DNA from: Planctomycetota bacterium
Lineage (GTDB): Bacteria; Planctomycetota; UBA1135; GCA-002686595
Length of the DNA stretch: 64,000 nucleotides
Assembly (NCBI GenBank): GCA_002862085.1
Contig: PKCK01000081.1
Coordinates: forward strand, 1-64,000
Reading direction: 5' to 3'
A program made the translations under genes and the position numbers. The notes under the pieces were generated by a model. That model was not told the DNA's origin, ran no database searches, and saw only the letters and a list, made by a program, of their open reading frames with translations. Of this stretch, positions 13,957 to 27,002 are shown in pieces. Position 1 is the stretch's first letter. Each line of letters begins with the position of its first letter.

Positions 13957-14877
13957 TCAGCGCCCCTCGGCCGGCTGGCGCGCGGGTTCGGGAGCGAGGG
14001 GGAGGGCGTCACGCAGGGAGTCGGGAACACGCTCGAGCGGCGAGGCGCTCGCGATCAGCAGGACAGGCGCCCCGGGCTCCGGCATGAGCCAGCCGTTGGG
14101 GATCCACGCCGTCTGCGAGACACACTCGGGGATCGCCGTCGTCAGGAGCGTGTCGCCCTGGGAGAAGAAAGACACGCACATGAGGTTACCGGTGGCCTTC
14201 GCCGCGAAGCGCTCGGGCCCGCCTTCGTGCTCGGACTCGACCATCCGCGAGCCGAGCCAGACGAGGCCGTGACGACGCATCGTGCGATCGCGCTCGAGAT
14301 CGATCACCAGATCCTCGAGACGGTGGAAGTGAACGGACTCCGCCGGGAAAGCTGCGGTCTTCTCGTCGAACGCGCCGGCCGCCTCCCGCCAGGCCGCGTG
14401 GAGGTAGACCGGCTTGCCGGAAGGGATCTCGACGTCGTGGGTCGGCGCGCCGGCCCGCACCTCCTCGCGGGAGGGAGGGGGGTCGATCGCCTCGAAGGTC
14501 ACGTTCTCGCCAGGCTCAGCGCCCGCGGCGAGGAAGGCAGCGCTCAGCACCTCGGCGTCGGTCTCCGTCACGAAGAGCGCCTCGTGCACGGCGCCGTGCG
14601 GATTGACGAGCAGGTACTCGAGGGCGTCGTGCCGGACCTCGACGCGGGCGGGGAAGGCCAAGAGGCCGGCGTCTCGCTCGACGAGGACCCCGGCGCGAGC
14701 GAATGCCGCGGTCAGAGCCGCCTCGGCCTCGTCCTGGATGACGGCCGAGCGCTCCACCGGTACGGGACCGGCGAGGGCGAGGGTCGCCGCGGCGGCTCCT
14801 GCGAGGACGGTCACGAGGACGCCGGTGGCGCCGAGGCGGCACCTCGTGGCGATCTGGTTCTGGCTGGCACGGTCCAT
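13957..14877 (-). CDS. Secreted or membrane-anchored YdjY-domain protein
   Basis: The 306-residue protein starts at an ATG at 14877 and has an N-terminal hydrophobic helix (residues about 15-40) that acts as signal or anchor. Residues about 65-150 (RVEVRHDALEYLLVNPHG, then HEALFVTETDAEVLSAAFLA) match the YdjY-like domain that recurs in secreted Planctomycetota proteins. The remainder is beta-rich. The function of the domain is not known. The gene is first in a likely operon with the membrane protein behind it and is divergent from the cardiolipin synthase gene with a 70-base gap. Confidence 0.72.
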   Translation of the reverse strand: MDRASQNQIATRCRLGATGVLVTVLAGAAAATLALAGPVPVERSAVIQDEAEAALTAAFARAGVLVERDAGLLAFPARVEVRHDALEYLLVNPHGAVHEALFVTETDAEVLSAAFLAAGAEPGENVTFEAIDPPPSREEVRAGAPTHDVEIPSGKPVYLHAAWREAAGAFDEKTAAFPAESVHFHRLEDLVIDLERDRTMRRHGLVWLGSRMVESEHEGGPERFAAKATGNLMCVSFFSQGDTLLTTAIPECVSQTAWIPNGWLMPEPGAPVLLIASASPLERVPDSLRDALPLAPEPARQPAEGR

Positions 14878-14947
14878 GGACCGTGAAACGTAGCCGACGT
14901 GGCCCCGGTTCACACAGAATGCACCGTCCGGCTCCGCCGCGCCCTCG

Positions 14948-16387
14948 ATGCTCGACCACTGGACCCTCGCTCTGCTGCTCATCGCCTTGGAGACCGCGGG
15001 AGTGGTCTCGGTGCTCCACGTGCTGATGCGCGGTCCCACGCCCCAGGGCGTGCTCGCGTGGTCCTTCTTCCTGCTGGTGCTCCCGATCTTCGCGGTCCCC
15101 CTCTACTGGATCTTCGGGCCGCACAAGTACGACGGGTACATCGACGCTCGACGCACCACGGCCGCGCCGTTCCACGGCGTGGTCGAGACCCTGCGCGAGG
15201 AGGCGGTGCCGATGATCGTGGAGCGAGACGAGGAGGCGCCGCTCATCGTCGCCCTCGAGCGGCTCGTCCGGCTGCCACTGACCAGCGGCAACCGCGCCGA
15301 GCTGCTCGTCGACGGCGAGGCCACGCGCGCCGCGATCTTCGAGGCCATCGACGCCGCGCGGCAGACCGTCCTGCTGCAGTTCTTCATCGTCCGCGACGAC
15401 GGCTTCGGCCAGGGCCTCAGCGCCCGGCTTGAGGCCGCGCGCGCGCGCGGCGTCCGCGTGTGCTTCATCTACGACGAGATCGGAAGCCACGGCCTGACAC
15501 GGCGCTTCATCCGCCGCCTGCGGAGCGCGGGCGTCCAGATCCAGCCCTTCGGCGCCTCGCGTCGCTCTCATCGCTTCCAGCTCAACTTCCGCAATCACCG
15601 CAAGGTCGTGGTCATCGACGGGGCGCTCGGCTTCGTGGGCGGCCTGAACATCGGCGACGAGTATCTCGGCCTCGATCCCGAGCTCTCTCCCTGGCGCGAC
15701 ACCTTCGTGCGCGTGCGCGGCCCGGTCGTGGCCGCGCTCCAGCTCTCCTTCCTGGAGGACTGGCACTGGGCGACCGACCAGGTCCCCGACTGGCCCTGGC
15801 CCGTTCTCGCCGCGCCGGACGCGACGGAGGACGGCCGCGCGGGCCACGCCATCGCGCTCCCCACCGGTCCCGCCGACCCCTTCGAGACCTGCAGCCTCGC
15901 CTTCGTCGCCCTCATCGACGCCGCCGAGGATCGGCTCTGGATCGCGACGCCCTACTTCGTCTTCGACGCGCAGATCATGGCGGCCTTGCAGCTCGCCGCG
16001 CTGCGAGGCGTGGACGTGCGCGTGCTGGTGCCCGAGCGCGCGGATCACGCCATGGCGTACTACGCGGGATGGTCCTACCACAGCCGCGTCCTCGAGTCGG
16101 GGTGCCGGATCTTCCGCTACACGAACGGCTTCATGCACCAGAAGGTGCTGCTGGTGGACGACCGGTGGGCGATGGTCGGGACGAAGAACCTCGACAACCG
16201 CTCGATGCGGCTGAACTTCGAGATCTCGCTGCTGGTCGAGTGCCCGGTCTTCGCCGGCGAGGTGGAGGACATGCTCCAGCGGGACTTCGAGGCATCGGGA
16301 GAGGTCACACGCGAGCGCCTGGCGGGGCTGAGCCCGTGGTTCCGCCTCAAGGCCCGCGCAGCGCGCCTGTTCGCACCGATCCTGTAA
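14948..16387 (+). CDS. cls: Cardiolipin synthase (phospholipase D family)
   Basis: A 479-residue bacterial cardiolipin synthase that joins two phosphatidylglycerol molecules. Two N-terminal membrane helices (about 5-25 and 35-58) are followed by the usual IFGPHKYDGY turn. Two HKD motifs are complete: His217-x-Lys219-x4-Asp224 (NHRKVVVIDG) and His397-x-Lys399-x4-Asp404 (MHQKVLLVDD), each with the downstream GGLNIGDEY or GTKNLDNRS segment. Length and order match ClsA-type enzymes. It stands alone between a divergent gene and the peptidase gene 74 bases downstream. Confidence 0.94.
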   Translation: MLDHWTLALLLIALETAGVVSVLHVLMRGPTPQGVLAWSFFLLVLPIFAVPLYWIFGPHKYDGYIDARRTTAAPFHGVVETLREEAVPMIVERDEEAPLIVALERLVRLPLTSGNRAELLVDGEATRAAIFEAIDAARQTVLLQFFIVRDDGFGQGLSARLEAARARGVRVCFIYDEIGSHGLTRRFIRRLRSAGVQIQPFGASRRSHRFQLNFRNHRKVVVIDGALGFVGGLNIGDEYLGLDPELSPWRDTFVRVRGPVVAALQLSFLEDWHWATDQVPDWPWPVLAAPDATEDGRAGHAIALPTGPADPFETCSLAFVALIDAAEDRLWIATPYFVFDAQIMAALQLAALRGVDVRVLVPERADHAMAYYAGWSYHSRVLESGCRIFRYTNGFMHQKVLLVDDRWAMVGTKNLDNRSMRLNFEISLLVECPVFAGEVEDMLQRDFEASGEVTRERLAGLSPWFRLKARAARLFAPIL

Positions 16388-16461
16388 GCCGAGAACGGAG
16401 TGAGACGTGGGCGGGGTGCGGCCCGGGCGGCGCCGCGTATCCTGCGCGGACCGCCTCAGCC

Positions 16462-18309
16462 ATGAAGAAGCTCCTCCTCCACACCCTCGCCCTGCTCTCC
16501 GCCCCGGGAGCCCTCGCCCAGGACGCCGCCCCGGCGGCGCTGCCCGACGACCTCCCGCCCGGCCTCGTCATCGAGGACGGCGCCGCCCAGCCGGCGAGCG
16601 CCTTCAGCGGGCGCCGCAACAGGATCCAGGAGGCGCTCTGGGTCGAGACCGAGTTCGACTCCGACGGCGACGGCTCCAGGGACCGCGTGTACGTCGACGT
16701 CACCCGCCCGAAGGTCACGGAGGGCGGCGCGGTCAAGGTCGCCGCGATCTACGAGACCAGCCCGTACTACTGGGGCGTCGCCGGCTTCGGCACGGACTTC
16801 TTCTGGGACCCGCGCCACGAGCTGGGCGGCCAGCCCCCCGAGCGCCCCGACGCGCCGAACATCGGCCCGCAGAAGGAGCGCATGCTCAACTCGTCGAGCT
16901 ACATCGGCACGTTCGTGCGCCGCGGTTTCGCGGTGGTCCACTCCGCGTCGCCCGGCACCGGACCAAGCCAGGGCTGCCCCACCATCGGCGGCCAGAACGA
17001 GTCCCTCGCGCCCAAGGCCGTGATCGACTGGATGTGCGGCCGCGCGAAGGGCTTCGACGCGCCGGTCGGCGGCGAAGAGGTCGTCTGCGACTGGTGCAAC
17101 GGCAAGATCGGGATGATCGGTACGTCCTACAACGGCACCCTCCCCGTCGCCGCTGCGACGACGGGCGTGGAGGGCCTCGAGACGATCGTCCCCGTCGCGC
17201 CGAACACGTCCTACTACCACTACTACCGCTCCAACGGCCTCGTCCGTCACCCCGGTGGCTACATGGGCGAGGACATCGACGTGCTCTACGACTTCGTGCA
17301 TTCCGGCGCCGAGGACCGCCGGCCGTGGTGCAACGAGAACGTGCGCGAGAAGATCCTCGAGGCGAACCTCGACCGCGTGACCGGTGACTACAGCGATTGG
17401 TGGGCGGCGCGTGACTACGTCAACCAGCTGGAGAAGGTCCGTTGCTCGGTCTTGATGGCCCATGGCTTCAACGACTGGAACGTGATGCCGGAGCACAGCG
17501 TCCGCGTGCGGGAGGCGCTCAAGGCCAAGGGGATCGAGACGATCTGCTACTACCACCAGGGCGGCCACGGCGGCGATCCGCCCATGGACCTCCTGGTCCG
17601 CTGGTTCACGCGCTACCTCTACGGCGTCGAGAACGGCGTGGAGGACGGGCCGCGCGCTTACATCGTGCGCGAGGGCGACAAGCGGTCGGCCCCCACCGCT
17701 TACGCGGACTGGCCCAACCCCGCGGCTGCGGACGTGACGCTCTTCCCCGCGGGCCCCGGCAATCAGGTCGGCCAGCTCGTCGAGGCGGGTCCCGTGAGCG
17801 GCCGCCAGCCGGTCATCGACGACGTGTCCATCACCGGCGCCGCGCTCGCTTCCGCTGGCGCCAGCGACCACCGCCTGCTCTTCGCGACCCCCGAACTCCA
17901 GGCCCCGGTGCACCTCTCGGGGACCTACCGGGTCACCCTGCGCTTGGCCGCCGACAAACCGGCGGCCAACCTGAGCGTCTGGCTCGTGTCCCTCCCCTGG
18001 ATCGACGGCGCGACGATCAACGAGAACATCATCAGCCGCGGCTGGGCCGACCCGCAGAACGCCGAGTCGATCCGAACGTCGAAGCCCCTCGAGCCGAACG
18101 GCTTCGTCGACCTCGCCTTCGACCTCCAGCCCGACGATCAGGTGATCCCCGTCGGCGCCCGGATCGGCCTGATGGTCTTCTCCAGCGACGCCGACTTCAC
18201 CCTCAAGCCGGAGAAGGGGACCCGCCTCCTGTTCGACCTCGAGGGGTGCTCGATCACCCTCCCGGTCGTCGGCGGCGCGCTCGCCTGGCGCGCCGCCACG
18301 GAGCTCTGA
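16462..18309 (+). CDS. Secreted X-Pro dipeptidyl-peptidase/CocE-family hydrolase (S15)
   Basis: The 615-residue protein begins with a clear signal peptide (KKLLLHTLALLSAPGALAQ). It has the S15 alpha/beta hydrolase core. The nucleophile is Ser222 in GTSYNG, the acid Asp lies in AHGFNDWNV and the base His in YHQGGHGG. The PepX-like insert WMCGRAKGFD(A)PVGG precedes the nucleophile. The last 200 residues form the jelly-roll X-Pro dipeptidyl-peptidase C-terminal domain. It should cleave Xaa-Pro dipeptides or related amides/esters in the periplasm or outside. The start is the ATG at 16462; a strong hairpin 40 bases after the stop ends the transcript. Confidence 0.9.
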   Translation: MKKLLLHTLALLSAPGALAQDAAPAALPDDLPPGLVIEDGAAQPASAFSGRRNRIQEALWVETEFDSDGDGSRDRVYVDVTRPKVTEGGAVKVAAIYETSPYYWGVAGFGTDFFWDPRHELGGQPPERPDAPNIGPQKERMLNSSSYIGTFVRRGFAVVHSASPGTGPSQGCPTIGGQNESLAPKAVIDWMCGRAKGFDAPVGGEEVVCDWCNGKIGMIGTSYNGTLPVAAATTGVEGLETIVPVAPNTSYYHYYRSNGLVRHPGGYMGEDIDVLYDFVHSGAEDRRPWCNENVREKILEANLDRVTGDYSDWWAARDYVNQLEKVRCSVLMAHGFNDWNVMPEHSVRVREALKAKGIETICYYHQGGHGGDPPMDLLVRWFTRYLYGVENGVEDGPRAYIVREGDKRSAPTAYADWPNPAAADVTLFPAGPGNQVGQLVEAGPVSGRQPVIDDVSITGAALASAGASDHRLLFATPELQAPVHLSGTYRVTLRLAADKPAANLSVWLVSLPWIDGATINENIISRGWADPQNAESIRTSKPLEPNGFVDLAFDLQPDDQVIPVGARIGLMVFSSDADFTLKPEKGTRLLFDLEGCSITLPVVGGALAWRAATEL

Positions 18310-18348
18310 GGAGCGGAGAGCTCCGCTCGTTCGAGGGCGCGGATCGAG

Positions 18349-18394
18349 GCCGGCCCGGCGCCACCTTCGAAGGTGGAGCCGGGCCGGCTTCTTC
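18349..18394 (+). terminator. Strong bidirectional hairpin after the X-Pro peptidase gene
   Basis: Arms GCCGGCCCGGC (18349-18359) and GCCGGGCCGGC (18378-18388) pair perfectly, with an inner CCACC/GGTGG stem and a TTCGA loop, followed by TTCTTC. It lies between convergent genes and can serve both strands. Confidence 0.75.
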
Positions 18395-18438
18395 ATCGCG
18401 GCCGCTGCGAGGCGCGGCGCCGCTGCGGGATGCGGAGC

Positions 18439-19512
18439 TCAGCGCTTCGTCGCGCGGGGCTCCTTCGCCTCGAGGCGGAGCAGCTCCACCATCGCCCCGC
18501 CCATGGCGAGGCCGACGTCCATGTAGGTCCGCGCGTCTCCGCCGTAGTGGCCGTTCGACGCGCCGCCCTGGCTGAGGGGGTGGGTGTAGACCGCGCGCAC
18601 GTCGTCCTTCAGCGCGGGGTGCGCCTGGCTCCTCCCGTCGACGGCCAGCATCGCCGCGAGGATCTGCCCCTCCACGCCGTTCGCGCCTTCCTCGGTCTGG
18701 CCGAGGCTGGCGCACACGAACTTCGCCTCAGGCGCCTCGAAGTCGGCGCGCAGGGCCTCGATCAAGCGCAGGAGGTTCCGCTCGTACATGGCGGCGTGCC
18801 CGCGGTCGTAGCGGTCCTTGTCACCCTGCCACCAGAAGAAGCCGGCGACCTCGAAGCGCGTCGCGCCCGGGTAGTAGGTGGAGAGCTCCTCGAGGACCTT
18901 CTTCGCGTTCGCCACGTCGTCGTCGTACTGCTTGCCCGCGTACCAGCCGATCTTCTTCGGCTCCGTTCCCTTCTCCCAGCGGTGCGGCGATTCACCGGAG
19001 CCCGCGTAGACCCAGGTCTTGCCGCCGTCCTCGAACTCGTAGCCGGGGCTCCCCGGCGGGAGCAGGTCCCAGCCGAGGCTGCGGTTCCCGATGCAGCTCT
19101 TCAGGATCAGCACGGGCTCCTCGAGCGCGTGGCCGAGCTGGTGGCCGATGCCCACCTCGGGCCCGATCTTCTTGCCCTCGACCGTGAGCCAGTCGTTGGC
19201 GTGCACGCGCATCCCGCCGCCGCGGGCCACCATCACGCGGACGTTGCGCACGTCCTTGCGCGTGGTCCAGGCCCCTTCGTCGTCCACGAGGAAGGGATAG
19301 CGCGACTGCTCACGCACCGCGTGCTCCAGGGTCCCGGGCTTCTCGCCGGCGACCTTGCCGAAGCCGAGCATGTTCGACTGCCCGAGGAGCACGAACACCT
19401 TGACCGGCTTCCCCATGTCAGCGGGCCGGCCATCGGGATCGGGGAGCTCGCCGCCCGGCGGGCGGACGAACGACGCGGCGAGGAGGAGCGAGGTGGCGAG
19501 GGTGCAGGTCAT
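18439..19512 (-). CDS. Secreted SGNH carbohydrate esterase (sialate O-acetylesterase-like)
   Basis: A 357-residue protein with a short signal peptide from the ATG at 19512 (TCTLATSLLLAASF). The SGNH nucleophile is Ser46 in LLGQSNMLG; the oxyanion residues follow in SCIGNRSLGWDLLPPG and FFWWQGDKD; the catalytic His is in SNGHYGGDA near the end. This matches the SASA/DUF303 acetylesterase family, which removes O-acetyl groups from sugars. Planctomycete relatives often act on algal polysaccharides, but the substrate here is not shown. The gene is preceded by 277 bases without a gene. Confidence 0.85.
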   Translation of the reverse strand: MTCTLATSLLLAASFVRPPGGELPDPDGRPADMGKPVKVFVLLGQSNMLGFGKVAGEKPGTLEHAVREQSRYPFLVDDEGAWTTRKDVRNVRVMVARGGGMRVHANDWLTVEGKKIGPEVGIGHQLGHALEEPVLILKSCIGNRSLGWDLLPPGSPGYEFEDGGKTWVYAGSGESPHRWEKGTEPKKIGWYAGKQYDDDVANAKKVLEELSTYYPGATRFEVAGFFWWQGDKDRYDRGHAAMYERNLLRLIEALRADFEAPEAKFVCASLGQTEEGANGVEGQILAAMLAVDGRSQAHPALKDDVRAVYTHPLSQGGASNGHYGGDARTYMDVGLAMGGAMVELLRLEAKEPRATKR

Positions 19513-19789
19513 GGGGTGCCGATCGGGGTCCGGGCACGGCGGGGATCCGCTCGCAGCAGCTAGGCCAGCGGGCGGTGAACGCGGCGAGCACGCGGTCGAA
19601 GGCAGGCTCGAAGCGCCCGCGGTCGGCCTCGGGTCACGTCCCCGGGGTCCTCGTCCGGCGCGCCGAGGGAGCACTCCGACGCGTCGCGCAGCGTCTCCCA
19701 CCGCGGGAGGGCGTACGCATCACCGTCAGCGGCTCGCAAACGCCGGTGGGAGTGACCCTCTTCGAGCGCTCCTTCGAGCGCCTCCACCA

Positions 19790-20572
19790 TCAGAGTTCGA
19801 ACGTGACGCCGACGCGCTCGAGGTCGTCCTTGACGAGCTCGGCGATCGCGCGCGCGAAGGCGCGGATCTCGTACTGCGCGTCGGGCTTGAGCCGCTGGTC
19901 CAGGAAGTGGAGCACTCCCTGGAGCGAAACCGTCCAGTAGGCCTGACTGTAGAGGCTCTGGGGCAGGATCATCCGCGCGATCTCCTTGGCGACGCCTCGC
20001 TCGATGCGCGCCTCGTAGCGCTCGAAGGCCTCGCGGCACTCCGCCAGCATCACGTCGCGCTCGCCCTCGTGATCGAAGTCCGGCGGCAGGTCGAAGGAGG
20101 CCTGCTTGTTGCCGTGGGGCGGGTTCGCACGCATCACGCTGGGGACGTAGAACTCCGGCGTCCACTTGACGTAGCGACCCGAGACCTCGTTCCAGGAGCA
20201 GCCCTTGTCGGTGTCGAACATCATGTCGAACACCTCGAGCGAGACCTCCTCACCCTCGACCTCGTAGGTGCGCCAGCCGCTCCCCACCTGGTACTTGAAG
20301 GCCTGGCGGAAGACGAACAGCGGAGCCTTCCAGTGGAAGGTGTAGAAGCTGTGCCGGTACGGCGAGGTGTGGCCGTGCTCCCACAGGAACGAGCAGAGCT
20401 TCTTGTCGCGCTCGTCGAAGCCCTCCTTCTGCTTGTCGTAGGAGATCCGCGCGCTGTTGACGACTTTCAGCGCGGGGTCCTGCGCCATCCGGTCCACCAG
20501 CGCGACGAAACCGATGTTGTCCCCCAGGGCGTCGATGGCGCCCTCCGGTTGATCGATCGCTGTCACGGCCAT
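19790..20572 (-). CDS. thyX: FAD-dependent thymidylate synthase with divergent, interrupted signature
   Basis: ThyX makes dTMP from dUMP using methylene-tetrahydrofolate, NADPH and FAD. The 260-residue protein keeps FRQ (88-90), SWNEVSGRY (126-134) and the C-terminal LPQSLYSQAYWTVSLQGVLH and AQYEIR segments. The family signature RHR-x2-S-x-N-E-x-S-x-R-Y is broken: RHR is replaced by Lys93-Tyr94-Gln95, and about 28 extra residues separate it from Ser126. The usual Glu of the upstream EH pair is Arg72 (SPYRHSFY). No thyA is in the window. The enzyme may be active with an altered dUMP/FAD site. The ATG at 20572 is the natural start. Confidence 0.9.
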   Translation of the reverse strand: MAVTAIDQPEGAIDALGDNIGFVALVDRMAQDPALKVVNSARISYDKQKEGFDERDKKLCSFLWEHGHTSPYRHSFYTFHWKAPLFVFRQAFKYQVGSGWRTYEVEGEEVSLEVFDMMFDTDKGCSWNEVSGRYVKWTPEFYVPSVMRANPPHGNKQASFDLPPDFDHEGERDVMLAECREAFERYEARIERGVAKEIARMILPQSLYSQAYWTVSLQGVLHFLDQRLKPDAQYEIRAFARAIAELVKDDLERVGVTFEL

Positions 20573-20658
20573 CGAGGCATTCTAGCGACCAGGAAGCCCG
20601 GACCCTCCGCCTGCGCCCCGGTTCCGTGGGCGGCTCCTGAGCACACCCCTCGATGCTC

Positions 20659-23463
20659 TCAGGGGCGCGTCGGCAGAGCGCGCAGCCAGATCGCCCGCTC
20701 CGCGGCGAAGCCCGGCCGTCCCTGGAGCGCCGCCGCCGTGACCCGGACCAGCACGGGCCCCGCCTCCGCCGTCTCGCCCTCGAGGGCGCCGACGACCTGC
20801 TGTCGCACCCGCCCCGTCCAGAGATCCAGGCAGAGCCCTCGCGCCGCCCGCCAGCGCTCGGCCTCCGGGAGCTCGCCGGCCAGCGCCAGCCAACCGGCGG
20901 CGCGCGCGCGTTCCCACCCGCGCCCCGGTCGCTCGCCTCCGAGTCCGAAGAGCCCGACCTCGATCAGCGTCGGCGCCACCGCTGCCCCCCTGGCTCCGCG
21001 ACCGAGGGAGACGAGGACGCGCCCGTCGATGCCGGACCACCCCGGCGTCGCCTCGAGCACCGCAGGGCCGAGGCCGACCGCGGCGAGGGTCGTGAAGGCC
21101 TCCACCTCCGCAGCCCACCGGAAATCCACGCGCAGGAGTTCACGGCCCTCGAGCCGCGCCGCGAGATCCCCGCGCGCCGCGGCCAGCGGGCGCGCGAGAA
21201 CGGCGACGAGTACGGCGCGGCCAGCGGGCCCCACCCGACGCTCGGACTCCTGACCGGCGCCGGTCCGACGAAGGTCCGCCGCGAGCCCGCGCGCGCACGA
21301 CTGCAGCAGCCCCCCGCGCAGCGCCACCAGCGCCTCGCGGAGGTCCGGCGCCGGGGCGGCGGCGATACGGCCGTCGCAGCGAACGAGGAACTGCGCCCCC
21401 ACCTCGAGGGCCTCCGCGCCGTCGTCCGCGCGGCGCACCGCCACCTCGCGGGCGAGCTCGAAGACCTCCTCGTCCGCGGCGGGGCGGTCGATCGCCATGC
21501 GGAGGATCGAATCCAACGGACGCCAGCGCCCTCTCGCCGCCGCGAGTTCGATGGCGGCCCGGGCCTCGGGCGTCGCGCCCGTGCGCAGCTGGGCGGCGAT
21601 CAACCCGTCGAGCCCGGGCACGAGACGGCCGGCCGGCACCAGCGAGAGCGCGCGCAGGATCCGCAGGCGCAGCGTGCCGTCGACGCCGCTGAAGTCCCGG
21701 AGCAGTGCCTCCCCCGCCGCCGTCGCCAGCTCGGGCTCCGCCCCGTGGGCGAGGATCTGCAGGCCGGCCTCGACGCGCACCCGCCGTGGAACACCGGCGT
21801 CGAGCAGGTCCGCCATCTCCTCGCTGCTGACGCGCGCCAGCTCGAGCACGGCGCGCTTGGGGAACTTGGGCCGCGCGTCGCCGCGCGCCTCGTCCCCGTG
21901 CAAAAGGTCCATCGTGCGGCGCAGTCCGTCGGCGAGGAGCTCGACGGTGGCCCCGTCCGGCGACCGCCCGAGCGCTCGCGCGAGCTGCGACGCCACGCCG
22001 TCGTGGGCCAGCGCCTCCGGATAGCTCGGCGCCGTCACCAGCGCGTCGAGCGCGCGGGACAGGACCCCACGGAGCGCGGCCTGGACCTCCGCATCGTCCT
22101 CGAACAGCCCGCACAGTTCGATCACCGACGGATCGGGCGCGCGGCTCGCCAGCAGGAGCTCGAGCAGGTCGTCCCTGAAGAGCGGTGACCGACGCTCCCG
22201 CGTCAGCCTCCTCAGGAGGTCGAGCTGGCGCCGCTCCCCGACGTCCGCTGCCGCGCGCCAGGAGTCGAGCAACGCACCGTCGGCCTCCGGGGCGTGCGTG
22301 GAGATCCAGTCGAAGGCCCGCGGGACCAGATCATCGTCCCCGCTCGCCAGCGCGCGCAGCACGACGCCGAGGAGCTCGCGCTCATCCCCGTACGCGAAGC
22401 GCCGACCGGCGATGTAGAGCGCCGTCATCGCGAGGTCCTCGTCGCCACGCTCGACGCAGGCCAGGAGTCCCGCTGGCGGGAGCGGCGATGCCGTCCCGTC
22501 GACGGCCTCCAACGCGTCCACCCGCTCCGGCTCCTCGGCCGAGAGGACCGCGGCGAGCCCCTCCAGGGGGTCGAGCATCCGCAGCCCTGCCCCGGACGCG
22601 GGCGAGGTGAGCAGCGCGCGCGCCACCTCGTCGATGGCCTCCGCCGAGCCGAGGGCGCGCGACGCGCGGCGCGCCTGCAGCTCCTCCGCCGCGATGCGGA
22701 CGAGCTCCACCTGATCCTCGTCGAGCTCGGGGGCCAGCCGCGCCCAGGCGGGAGCCGCGACGGCGATCCGCGGCTCGGCGCGGGCCGCGCCCACCAGCTG
22801 CATCAACGCGGAAGGGAGGCCGTACGAGCCGACAGCGCCGATCGCCTCCCGGTCGAAGGGCAGCGGGAGCACCGCGGGCATCCACTCCTCCCAGGACGCA
22901 TCGAGCGTGCTTCCCCCCAGCGTCCGCAGCCGCTCCAGGGCCGCGGCCGTTCCGCCGTGCAGCCCGATGCGCGTCAAGAGTTCGACGAGAGCGCTCGCAG
23001 CGATGGGCGGGCGCTCGAGCTCGAGGACACGGCGTGCGAACACGCCGCGGAACGCGGGGTCATCGAGGAGTGCGCGGGCGAGACGGTCGAGCGCGGCTTC
23101 ACGCCACGCGAGGTGAGGCGCGTCGAGGGCGGCGAGGAGCCTCTCGGTGAGGCGGCCCGGATCGGGCTCGACGAGGATCCGAAGGGCGGGCCCGCCCACC
23201 TCGCGGCGCGCAGGGCTGAACCCGTCGCCGTGCAGGCCGCCTGCGCGATACACCGCGTCCAGCGCAGCGAACTCCCGGGCCCAGTCGGGACCGCCGATCG
23301 AGAGGAGAGCGCCCTCCGCAGCCGCGGTCGTGACGCCCTCGAGCCCGCGCTCCGCGGCCAGGGCGCGCAGCGCGAGCTCGCGGTCCACGGCGAGCTCCTG
23401 AGCAGCGATCGCGGCCGGCGCAGCGATCGCGCCGACGAGGAGGGTCAGCAGGAGCCGCTTCAC
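20659..23463 (-). CDS. Large secreted HEAT-repeat-like protein
   Basis: The 934-residue protein begins at GTG 23463 with a signal peptide (KRLLLTLLVGAIAAPAAIA). The whole mature part is alpha-helical, built of repeated 35-45-residue helical pairs with leucine, alanine and acidic spacing typical of HEAT/ARM repeats (for example LERPPIAASALVELLTRIGL). There are no catalytic motifs. It is likely an extracytoplasmic scaffold or binding protein. Its GTG start overlaps the TGA of the asparaginase gene as GTGA, so the two are translated together, although I know no functional link. Confidence 0.75.
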   Translation of the reverse strand: MKRLLLTLLVGAIAAPAAIAAQELAVDRELALRALAAERGLEGVTTAAAEGALLSIGGPDWAREFAALDAVYRAGGLHGDGFSPARREVGGPALRILVEPDPGRLTERLLAALDAPHLAWREAALDRLARALLDDPAFRGVFARRVLELERPPIAASALVELLTRIGLHGGTAAALERLRTLGGSTLDASWEEWMPAVLPLPFDREAIGAVGSYGLPSALMQLVGAARAEPRIAVAAPAWARLAPELDEDQVELVRIAAEELQARRASRALGSAEAIDEVARALLTSPASGAGLRMLDPLEGLAAVLSAEEPERVDALEAVDGTASPLPPAGLLACVERGDEDLAMTALYIAGRRFAYGDERELLGVVLRALASGDDDLVPRAFDWISTHAPEADGALLDSWRAAADVGERRQLDLLRRLTRERRSPLFRDDLLELLLASRAPDPSVIELCGLFEDDAEVQAALRGVLSRALDALVTAPSYPEALAHDGVASQLARALGRSPDGATVELLADGLRRTMDLLHGDEARGDARPKFPKRAVLELARVSSEEMADLLDAGVPRRVRVEAGLQILAHGAEPELATAAGEALLRDFSGVDGTLRLRILRALSLVPAGRLVPGLDGLIAAQLRTGATPEARAAIELAAARGRWRPLDSILRMAIDRPAADEEVFELAREVAVRRADDGAEALEVGAQFLVRCDGRIAAAPAPDLREALVALRGGLLQSCARGLAADLRRTGAGQESERRVGPAGRAVLVAVLARPLAAARGDLAARLEGRELLRVDFRWAAEVEAFTTLAAVGLGPAVLEATPGWSGIDGRVLVSLGRGARGAAVAPTLIEVGLFGLGGERPGRGWERARAAGWLALAGELPEAERWRAARGLCLDLWTGRVRQQVVGALEGETAEAGPVLVRVTAAALQGRPGFAAERAIWLRALPTRP

Positions 23464-24491
23464 AGGACCTCGACCCGCCCCACCTCGATCCCCGCCCAGT
23501 TGCGCAGCACCGACGCGCGGAAGCGCTCGAGGGCTCTCGCACCCGCGTCGTCGATGAGTTCGAAGCGCCGGAGGAGCTCGACGACGACGGCGTGGAGCCC
23601 GCGCAGCCCGCCGTCGTCCATCTTCACGGCGAGGGCCACGTCCTCGCCCGGCACGCCGACGGCGTAGATCGCCTCCGCGCCGATCTTCGGGAAGAGCCGC
23701 CCCCCGGAGGCGCGCACGATGGCGGTGCAGAGGCGCCTGTGCTCTCCCGCGAGGAGGACGGGGTGCGCCGCGACGGCCCGCTGGATCCGCTCCGCAGCAG
23801 TCCGGCGCTCGGGCGCCAGGCCGTCCGGATTCGTGACGCGCGCGAAGCCGAGGGCCAGCGCGCTGAGGGGCGTGCGGAAGGTCGGCGCGGAGCAGCCGTC
23901 GACGGCGACCCCGAGCTCCTCCGGCGTGCGGTCCGTCATGTCCGCCACGGCCGCCCTGACGAGCGTCTGACCGGGAGAGTCGAACTCGAGGTAGCTCGCG
24001 GGATCCGCGCCGAGGAAGCGGGTGAGGGCCAGGAACCCCGCGTGCTTGCCCGAGCAGTTGTTGTGGATCCGACCCGGCTCGTGACCGCTCTCCTGGAGCG
24101 CGCGGCGCGCGGCCGGGTCGCCCGGCGGCTGTGGCCCGCATCCCAGGTGCTCCTCGGCCAGTTCGAGCCGGCCGAGCAGGCCTCGGGCCGTGCGGACGTG
24201 GGCGTCCTCGGCGTTGTGGCTCGAGACGGCGAGGCAGAGCTCCTCGTCGGTCAGGCCGATCCTGTCGGCGGCGCCGGTCTCGAGCAGGGGGAGCACCTGG
24301 AGGCACTTGACCGAGCTCCGCGCGAAGAAGGGGTGATCCACGGCGCCCGCGGACTCCAGCACGTTCCCCGCCGTGTCGACGAGGCAGAAGGCACCGCGGT
24401 GGACGGACTCCACGCCGTCCCCGCGCCAGGCCCGGACCAGGACGGGGTTGTCGGGGTAGGCGCTGCCGCTCGCCTCGGGAGGAGCCGTCAT
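23460..24491 (-). CDS. L-asparaginase, Rhizobium etli (ReAV, class 3) type
   Basis: A 343-residue asparaginase that hydrolyses asparagine to aspartate and ammonia. The serine-beta-lactamase-like SxxK pair is Ser59-x-x-Lys62 (ARSSVKCL). The second Ser is in VSSHNAED. The two Cys of the zinc site are Cys146 (HNNCSGKHAG) and Cys200 (DGCSAPTF), and the conserved FPKIGAEA Lys follows. All these features match the inducible R. etli enzyme, not the E. coli types. The ATG at 24491 is used. It is the first gene of a two-gene unit with the secreted HEAT protein. Confidence 0.92.
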   Translation of the reverse strand: MTAPPEASGSAYPDNPVLVRAWRGDGVESVHRGAFCLVDTAGNVLESAGAVDHPFFARSSVKCLQVLPLLETGAADRIGLTDEELCLAVSSHNAEDAHVRTARGLLGRLELAEEHLGCGPQPPGDPAARRALQESGHEPGRIHNNCSGKHAGFLALTRFLGADPASYLEFDSPGQTLVRAAVADMTDRTPEELGVAVDGCSAPTFRTPLSALALGFARVTNPDGLAPERRTAAERIQRAVAAHPVLLAGEHRRLCTAIVRASGGRLFPKIGAEAIYAVGVPGEDVALAVKMDDGGLRGLHAVVVELLRRFELIDDAGARALERFRASVLRNWAGIEVGRVEVL

Positions 24492-24594
24492 CGAAGAGAT
24501 TCTAGGGAGCGCGCGGGGCGTCGCTGCAGGGGTCCCGGCGGTCCGCACCGCTCGCCGTGAACGCCGGGGCCCCTGGCGCGGTACCCTTCCCGCG

Positions 24595-25149
24595 ATGTCC
24601 GCACCCGAGACACGACCGGAGGTGCAGCTGCGCGTGGCCCGCGTGGTCCTGCGCGAGCGCTCGCCCCAGCAGTGGGTCTTCCTCCAGGAGGCTCACCCGC
24701 GCGAGGGCGCCGAGCCCCGCGGCTTCCCGATCGTGATCGGCTCCGGGGAGGCCTTCGAGATCCATCGGGTCCTCCACAGCGAGGACACGCCCCGGCCCCT
24801 CACCCACGAGCTCGCCGGACATCTCGTGGACGCCCTCGGCTCGCGGTTGGTCGGCGTCGACATCGTCGACCTGCGCTCGAACACCTTCTACGCGCAGCTC
24901 CGGCTGGAGGCCCCCCGTACAGCGGCGGGCGACACCAACGACCCGACCGGCGCGGAGGAGATCCTCGTGGACGCGCGCCCGAGCGACGCCCTCGCCCTCG
25001 CCTTGCGTGTGGGCGCTCCGATCCGCGTCCCGGAGGCGCTCCTCGAGGAGGTGCGCACCGACGACGCCACCGACCCGCTCCCCGGAACGGACGGCGACGC
25101 GGACGAGGGCGAGACCTTCGGGCCCGAGGACCCCTTCCCCGACCTTTGA
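24595..25149 (+). CDS. Bifunctional nuclease family protein (BFN, DUF151)
   Basis: A 184-residue protein of the BFN family. Diagnostic segments are PIVIGSGEAFEIHRVL near residue 45, the RSNTFYAQLRL strand and VDARPSDALALALRVGAPI near residue 125, followed by an acidic tail. Plant homologues cleave RNA and single-stranded DNA; in bacteria the role is not settled. The ATG at 24595 is divergent from the asparaginase gene (103-base gap). The downstream membrane-protein gene starts inside its stop codon. Confidence 0.88.
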   Translation: MSAPETRPEVQLRVARVVLRERSPQQWVFLQEAHPREGAEPRGFPIVIGSGEAFEIHRVLHSEDTPRPLTHELAGHLVDALGSRLVGVDIVDLRSNTFYAQLRLEAPRTAAGDTNDPTGAEEILVDARPSDALALALRVGAPIRVPEALLEEVRTDDATDPLPGTDGDADEGETFGPEDPFPDL

Positions 25150-27002
25150 CGGACGAGGGAACGAACGCGGGCCGGGCGCGGATCCGGGCGGCGGCCCTGC
25201 TGCTCCTCATCGTGGTCCCGGGCTTCCTGCGCCTGTGGCCCGTGGGACACGGCGCGCCCCGGACGGAGTACGTGCCGGACACGCACGTCGTTCGCAACGC
25301 GCTCCACATGGCGAAGGACCGCGACCTGGTCCCGCCCGGCGGCGCCTACTCGACCTATCCCTACCTGCTGGCCTACACCCTCGTGCCCGTCTACGCGGCG
25401 GACTTCGTCGCGGGCAAGGTCACCGGCGAGTGGAGCGACGGCGCCGGCTACGGCGATCATCTGCGCGAACGCCCGTGGCGCGCGCACCGGCTGGCGCGGA
25501 TCGTCTTCGCGATCATCGCCTCCCTCACGCCGCTCCTCGTCTTCCTCGCGGCGCGGGCAGCGGGCCTCGGCGCCGGGGCCTGGGTCGCCGGATGGCTGAC
25601 GGCGACCTGCTTGCTCCACGTCCAGCTCTCCGTCCAGGAGCGGCCATGGGGTCCGATGATGGCCCCCCTCGCGGCGAGCCTGTGGGCGGCGATCGTGCAC
25701 GTCCGCACGGGTCGGCGCCGCGCGCTCGTCCTCTCGGGCGTGGCCGCCGGCGTGGCGGGCGCGATGCACCAGGGCGGCATGCCCTTCCTCGGCCTCGCCG
25801 GGCTCGCGTGGGCCCTCGCCCCGCGGGACCTCGTCGGGCCGCTCACCGCGCGCATCGTCGGCGGCGTGCTCACCGTCGCCGCGTTCGCCGCCGTGGTCCT
25901 CCTCCTCGGCCATCCCTACGTGCTGGTCCACGGCCGTCCGGAGACCGCCGCCGCGGGCGCGGAGTTCGTGAAGCAGGGAATGACGACCATCCAGATCGGC
26001 AACCAGCAGCTCCAGCTCTGGATCCGCTGGGCGTCCTTCCCGGCGCTCGCGCGCGCCTTCGCGGGATACGACCCCGTGATCCTCGCCCTCGGTCTCGTGG
26101 GCGCCGCGGCCGCGTTCCGCCAGCGCGTCATGATCCCCGCGCTCGTCTTCGTCCTCGGTTGGGGCGCGTTCTTCATGACGAACGGGGGCGAGCACACGCG
26201 CTACCTCCTTCCCATGGCCGTCCTGCTCGCGCTCCCGGCGGGCTTCGCCGTCGAGCGCTTCGCCACCTCGACGCCGCTCCGGATCGCCGCGGGTGTGCTC
26301 CTGCTCCTCCCCCTCGTCCAGGCGCTGCGCCTCGGAACGATCCTGCGCCAGCCCGACACCCGCGCCGCGGCGGAGGAGCTGCTCGCCGAGCTGCCCGAGG
26401 GCGCCCGGGTGGCCATCGACGTCTACGGCCCGATCGTCGAGCAGACGCGTGCGGGGCTCGAGACGACGGACCGCCTGCGCGACCTCTACGCACGCGAGGC
26501 CTTCCGCGCCGGCCAGCTCTTGGCGGGAACGGCCCGGACCCCGGGCGTCGACGCCTTCCGCATCGAGGACGCGATGCTCTTCGATCCCCGCCACCGCGGC
26601 TCCGAGGTGCGCCAGCTGCCCCCGCGCCTCGACGGGAGCGCGCGCCCCCCGCTGCCCGAGACCCAGGACGCCGGCGAGGTCCTCGCCGCCCTCGGCGCGA
26701 CCCACGTCCTGCTCGTGGATCGCACGCCGGACGACGGCCGGCCGCCGCTCCTGATCGATCCCGAGCCCTCGCTCCCGAACGAGTTCGACGGCCCCGGCGC
26801 GCCGCCCGTCCCGAAGCTCGGCCCCCTCGCGGTGGGCCCGGCCCTCTGGCGCCTGCACCCGGCCTGGTCCGACCCGGCGACGCCCGACGCCGCCGCGGCC
26901 CGCGACGGCCACCTCCCGGCGACCCTGGCCTTCCCGCTGGTCGACCTGTGGCGCGTCCAGCGACCCGGCCCCGCGCTCTCGCTGCACGCGCTCAGTCGCT
27001 AA
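25146..27002 (+). CDS. Polytopic membrane glycosyltransferase-like protein (PMT/GT-C type)
   Basis: A 618-residue protein with about ten membrane helices in the first 420 residues and a soluble C-terminal domain. The first periplasmic loop has an acidic PDTHVVRNAL segment and a later GGEHTRYLLPM, the layout of GT-C lipid-linked-sugar transferases (PMT/ArnT). No invariant motif proves the activity. The start is TTG at 25146, which overlaps the BFN stop codon as TTGA. The donor, acceptor and partner genes are unknown. Confidence 0.78.
   Translation: MTDEGTNAGRARIRAAALLLLIVVPGFLRLWPVGHGAPRTEYVPDTHVVRNALHMAKDRDLVPPGGAYSTYPYLLAYTLVPVYAADFVAGKVTGEWSDGAGYGDHLRERPWRAHRLARIVFAIIASLTPLLVFLAARAAGLGAGAWVAGWLTATCLLHVQLSVQERPWGPMMAPLAASLWAAIVHVRTGRRRALVLSGVAAGVAGAMHQGGMPFLGLAGLAWALAPRDLVGPLTARIVGGVLTVAAFAAVVLLLGHPYVLVHGRPETAAAGAEFVKQGMTTIQIGNQQLQLWIRWASFPALARAFAGYDPVILALGLVGAAAAFRQRVMIPALVFVLGWGAFFMTNGGEHTRYLLPMAVLLALPAGFAVERFATSTPLRIAAGVLLLLPLVQALRLGTILRQPDTRAAAEELLAELPEGARVAIDVYGPIVEQTRAGLETTDRLRDLYAREAFRAGQLLAGTARTPGVDAFRIEDAMLFDPRHRGSEVRQLPPRLDGSARPPLPETQDAGEVLAALGATHVLLVDRTPDDGRPPLLIDPEPSLPNEFDGPGAPPVPKLGPLAVGPALWRLHPAWSDPATPDAAAARDGHLPATLAFPLVDLWRVQRPGPALSLHALSR

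Follow-up and report, generated by a model that had tools for sequence, protein, structure and literature searches.

The window, i.e., the whole 64,000-nucleotide stretch of planctomycete DNA that was analysed, codes on its minus strand for a 260-residue ThyX, in an open reading frame that runs from an ATG at 20572 to a TGA at 19790. Its neighbors in the region 13957-27002 code for a PLD-family protein (14948-16387, plus strand), an S15 peptidase (ending at 18309, plus), a SASA esterase (18439-19701, minus), an asparaginase II (23460-24548, minus), and a bifunctional nuclease (24595-25149, plus); none of the neighbors scanned is a gene of a nucleoside-antibiotic, base-modification, or secondary-metabolite cluster. 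The features discussed below, with residues of the T. maritima enzyme marked Tm, are:

19790..20572, minus strand: thyX, gene for a 260-residue phage-type flavin-dependent thymidylate synthase (Pfam Thy1, TIGR02170, AF2 model matching T. maritima ThyX structures)
20288..20296, minus strand: KYQ triad, residues 93-95, replacing RHR (Tm 78-80); by alignment, invariant in all family sequences
20198..20281, minus strand: 28-residue insert, residues 98-125 (SGWRTYEVEGEEVSLEVFDMMFDTDKGC), adjoining the active-site loop; placed by alignment, with a low-confidence β-hairpin predicted by the AF2 model
20171..20197, minus strand: intact second half of the signature, residues 126-134 (SWNEVSGRY), equivalent to Tm S83-Y91; by alignment
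20354..20356, minus strand: R73, which by alignment replaces Tm E58 and so brings an extra positive charge close to the FAD site
19919..19921, minus strand: Q218, which replaces Tm R165; by alignment, the MtbFDTS counterpart of R165 is the Arg with which the partner subunit binds the FAD phosphate (PMC6514825)

The protein matches the Pfam Thy1 profile (PF02511) with 133.8 bits (cut-off 24.8) and the NCBIfam thyX equivalog TIGR02170 with 131.4 bits (cut-off 87.9). Its AF2 model (mean pLDDT 81), a monomer, whereas the ThyX active site lies between subunits, has the ThyX fold when compared with the PDB, matching T. maritima ThyX with E 3e-16 and a TM-score of up to 0.8 by target length. The SxNExSxRY half of the ThyX signature is present together with the dUMP-contacting and catalytic residues, namely H68, R89, Q90, E129, S131, R133, Y134, R200, and R227 (respectively Tm H53, R74, Q75, E86, S88, R90, Y91, R147, and R174). 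The RHR half is absent: K93, Y94, and Q95 align with Tm R78, H79, and R80, and every family member has KYQ here. Further, G97 aligns with Tm A82 and S126 with Tm S83, leaving residues 98-125 as the insert. These alignments bear out an earlier note made from the letters alone, which had seen Lys93-Tyr94-Gln95 in place of RHR, an insert of about 28 residues after it (exactly 28), and an intact SxNExSxRY half (S126-Y134). By fold, profile, and catalytic residues the protein is a ThyX that lacks RHR, and the RHR half does not define the whole ThyX family because K-[H/Y]-x takes its place across a large class of phage-type proteins that carry the ThyX annotation.

The literature presents RHR as a highly conserved ThyX signature and FAD anchor that holds FAD by its ribityl and phosphate groups, the first Arg sitting on the flavin (isoalloxazine) ring (PMC6514825). 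R78 lies opposite N1 and C2=O when the flavin is reduced (PMC11940539); Arg78 and Arg80 are also listed as dUMP contacts (PMC3498832). The proposal that the triad contacts FAD and dUMP alike therefore stands mainly for FAD, with its dUMP part holding for these two arginines. The other changes around the FAD site relative to T. maritima ThyX are E58R, N163S, R165Q, N169H, and L173Q. In our alignment Tm R165 appears to correspond to MtbFDTS Arg190, through which the partner subunit contacts the FAD phosphate (PMC6514825). The comparison predicts that the FAD-side contacts of H79, R80, and R165 are lost, that R78K is conservative, and that E58R adds a positive charge; what had been proposed as a changed nucleotide site probably reflects a change on the FAD side of the active site rather than a shift in nucleotide specificity.

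The K-[H/Y]-x class and its phage members

We define the phage-type K-Y-x class by K78 and Y79 together with four or more inserted residues between Tm 82 and 83; the window ThyX, with KYQ and an insert of 28, falls within it. In a census of 256 non-redundant ThyX sequences chosen around the K-[H/Y]-x class, an insert is present in 145/145 K-Y, 1/98 K-H, and 1/11 R-H forms, and the K78 type with R58 accounts for 175 of the 256. The alignments place the window ThyX among the K-[H/Y]-x forms, a large class found mostly in phages, wherein Tyr79 goes with an insert of 6-47 residues and His79 generally with none. This association of K-Y with the insert rests on about three to four changes across the tree, too few independent changes for statistical proof of coevolution. 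We found no earlier description of a K-H/Y-x ThyX class in the open literature, which is weak evidence as the older motif papers lay outside that coverage.

Cultured phages and plasmids have a looser K-Y-[I/V/A/L/R] form with inserts of 6-47 residues. In the ThyX of Bacillus phage SP-15 (L215) the triad is KYR and the insert at this site is 47 residues long; this phage is known for its hypermodified thymine. Acidithiobacillus-type ThyX proteins (L063-L065, L067, L068) have KHR and no insert, a natural single R78K in cellular enzymes. A scan of IMG/VR recovered the KYQ form with the 28-residue insert in about 50 contigs (52-67% identity to the window ThyX), KYQ with a 15-residue insert in two contigs, and many KHQ forms without an insert. 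In the nearest viral group, L136/L391 (99.9-kb contig; L136 is IMGVR_UViG_3300035670_000086), thyX is surrounded by genes for tail sheath, tail tube, replicative helicase, SSB, RNR, SbcC/D-like proteins, and dNMP kinase, with pieces of a DNA polymerase also encoded nearby; this gene content points to a contractile-tailed, T4-like phage. In the KYQ phages (L391, L136, L181, and relatives) the DNA polymerase is split over two to three genes, in some cases with the dNMP kinase gene between the pieces.

Fixation and thymidylate supply in one planctomycete family

The nearest relatives of the window ThyX come from planctomycete genomes of one family, the relatives of Saltatorellus, including the complete genome of Planctomycetes bacterium Poly30 (CP036434.1), which we take to be Saltatorellus ferox. 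KYQ and the 28-residue insert are invariant in 39/39 distinct full-length family sequences aligned (49 sequences in a second alignment), and 11 of the 28 insert residues are invariant among the 39, viz., S98, W100, R101, Y103, G107, F115, D116, D120, D122, G124, and C125; the R101 position is basic (R or K) in almost every form with the 28-residue insert. The gene is present in all 37 family genomes searched, its own included, at 70-100% identity. A phylum-wide draw of 392 genomes gave KYQ thyX in 22, every one from the Saltatorellus-related family, and none in the roughly 370 other planctomycete genomes. With dN/dS values of 0.12-0.35 for the family genes against that of the window, the gene is under purifying selection.

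The occurrence of KYQ and insert without exception in the 39 sequences rules out a sequencing or assembly artefact, and the open frame, the invariance, and the dN/dS values likewise rule out a pseudogene or frameshift. An intein or intron in the signature is rejected, as either would be much longer than 28 residues and all relatives have the insert in frame. Nor is the insert a common property of the ordinary ThyX of the same order, where families f4, f5, and f8 have other ThyX proteins. Elsewhere among planctomycetes, one ThyX of 752 residues (L108, G188) has an apparent intein before the TTPFE block, and several other families, f6 and f7 of the same order among them, have proteins of about 550 residues with two tandem ThyX-like domains and degenerate motifs (L123-L131, L114, L115; G041, G046, G049, G055, and others). 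Another planctomycete ThyX (L107, G233) retains RHR and has 21 inserted residues of unrelated sequence there, indicating that the site tolerates insertions without the K-Y change.

The genome of the window has one ThyX only, and a search for ThyA (PF00303) found none in it; the genome does encode dTMP kinase and dCTP deaminase, and dUTPase (PF00692) was not found. ThyA is absent from 80/81 family genomes, DHFR (PF00186) from 40/41, and thymidine kinase from 39/41, the two exceptions to the last being the window's own genome and one congener. The sole ThyA match (L132; G036:C115:57451-58395) lies in a genome that also has a KYQ ThyX, and transfer or contamination is possible. Most family genomes are drafts of 64-93% completeness, so that single absences mean little, while the pattern over 81 genomes does count. 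Given that ThyA is lacking and thymidine kinase mostly so, the lineage must make dTMP, for which thyX is the only candidate known, and this argues against a different pyrimidine substrate; the KYQ ThyX very probably provides the family's dTMP by itself and is not an enzyme for another pyrimidine, with salvage being possible in the window's genome and one congener, which have the kinase. It is in all likelihood the working thymidylate synthase of the family, and in most relatives the only one: a phage-type ThyX with Lys-Tyr-x for Arg-His-Arg and a loop insert. The functional subfamily raised in the earlier note thus gains support from fixation across the family, purifying selection, a probable role as sole thymidylate synthase, and membership in a large phage-type class. 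The alignment that it had proposed as a check finds the 28-residue form invariant in the family and also in viral contigs, and the separate canonical thymidylate synthase that, along with failed complementation, it had named as telling against its reading did not turn up in the genome search for ThyA.

The second suggestion of that note, a ThyX-fold enzyme whose main substrate is UMP or another pyrimidine nucleotide, has a precedent in PolB, which shows that enzymes of this fold can use UMP (PMC5003785), and the alteration of the triad and several FAD-pocket residues would be in keeping with it. We nevertheless regard it as very improbable, since the equivalents of the uracil- and phosphate-holding residues of PolB and T. 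maritima ThyX, and those that activate dUMP, are all kept, the genome has no other thymidylate synthase (with ThyA in 1/81 and little thymidine kinase in the family), the scanned neighbors are not nucleoside-antibiotic or base-modification genes, and the phage copies lie in DNA-replication modules beside dNMP kinase or RNR. A degenerate or FAD-weakened ThyX, surviving only through thymidine salvage, would account for the three lost FAD-side contacts (H79, R80, R165) and could draw on the thymidine kinase of the window's own genome; however, purifying selection, the invariance of K, Y, Q, and the 11 insert residues, the 39/41 family genomes without that kinase, and the retention of the form with KYQ and 28-residue insert in diverse phages leave this explanation with little credence. 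A functional thymidylate synthase is the reading we retain, and the alternative that bears on its history is taken up with the trees.

Origin of the bacterial gene

Two trees were built, one of them without the triad and insert columns. In both, the bacterial family forms one clade (100/98) nested within the viral KYQ clade, with the viral L135/L139/L143 as its sister (99/93-95), short-insert viral forms as basal branches, and next-outward clades (KHQ, KYx) consisting entirely of phage, IMG/VR, or plasmid sequences, in a sampling where outgroup bacterial chromosomes are thin and bacteria other than Planctomycetota are covered non-exhaustively. This nesting of bacterial genes among viral ones suggests, as the best reading, an ancient acquisition of thyX from a T4-like phage before the family radiated. 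The opposite direction, whereby the same enzyme arose in the bacterial lineage and was then captured by phages, is compatible with the AU test, under which a single clade of all viral KYQ sequences is not rejected (p 0.356), and with the facts that only one bacterial lineage is known with the KYQ form and that phages do capture host genes. We consider it unlikely, as viral forms, those with short inserts among them, diverge before the bacterial clade, the clades further out are again of phage, IMG/VR, or plasmid origin, and the family is a single tight clade nested at 99/93-95.

Acquisition from a phage would have been an old event, which fits the GC3 of 0.94 of the window thyX, the same as that of its neighbors (the chromosome window is 73% GC), despite the 35-41% GC of the KYQ viral contigs. 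The asparaginase II, bifunctional nuclease, S15 peptidase, and PLD neighbors are syntenic in part of the family, and thyX is therefore an old chromosomal resident; these chromosomal neighbors and the shared GC3 give no support to residence in a prophage.

A possible rebuilt FAD anchor and comparison with known systems

Sequence searches of the PDB found no solved structure of any K-Y type ThyX. In the AF2 model the insert forms a low-confidence hairpin (residues 98-105 and 108-115, pLDDT about 44-66) between the triad helix and the active-site loop, and its conserved aromatic-basic pair W100-R101 and DxDKGC end would come just ahead of that loop. We propose that the enzyme follows the normal ThyX pathway, using CH2-THF and NAD(P)H to turn dUMP into dTMP, with K93 standing in for R78 opposite N1 and C2=O of the flavin. 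R73 (from E58) and the insert might make up for the missing FAD-phosphate contacts of H79, R80, and R165, with R101, the conserved basic residue of the insert, sharing this part with R73, and Y94 might pack against the insert. The broader idea, that the family swapped its thymidylate synthase for a phage enzyme with the FAD-anchoring triad rebuilt around a loop insert, as a second way to hold and tune the flavin with a possible change in oxygen sensitivity or reductant use, is put forward tentatively, at slightly under even chances.

A natural ThyX class without RHR is common in phages, and one bacterial lineage seems to depend on it for all its thymidylate, which makes it a possible example of a phage enzyme that became essential to a cell. 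The K-[H/Y]-x class offers a direct comparative test of the roles of R78, H79, and R80, and the KYQ ThyX is a warning for motif-based annotation and for the design of ThyX inhibitors.

Set against known systems, the window protein resembles T. maritima ThyX (TM0449, PDB 1O27, 8REN) in fold, going by the AF2 model, and in the nine kept dUMP and catalytic residues, and differs from it by KYQ, the 28 residues between Tm A82 and S83, and the five substitutions E58R, N163S, R165Q, N169H, and L173Q. As in ThyX generally (PF02511, TIGR02170), it is the only thymidylate synthase of its genome, occurring without ThyA and DHFR. With the phage-type ThyX of PHROG 85 (Bacillus and Geobacillus phages, Bacillus plasmid thyX, SP-15; about 40% identity) it shares K78, Y79, the place of the insert, R58, and mostly S/Q/H/Q at 163/165/169/173, but their inserts are of 6-15 or 47 residues and different sequence, their third triad residue is mostly V/I/A, and they have SRRY where the window protein has SGRY. 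The viral KYQ ThyX proteins from IMG/VR (e.g., L136) are alike in KYQ, the 28-residue insert, its GS-x-[W/F]-[R/K] start, and its DKGC end, their carriers being low-GC, contractile-tailed phage contigs in contrast to the GC-rich chromosome of the window. Finally, PolB, the UMP/dUMP methylase of polyoxin biosynthesis (PDB 4P5A), appears to share the ThyX fold, FAD, and the equivalents of the dUMP-contact residues (PMC5003785); it takes UMP in a secondary-metabolite pathway, whereas the window ThyX is the only candidate thymidylate synthase of its cell.
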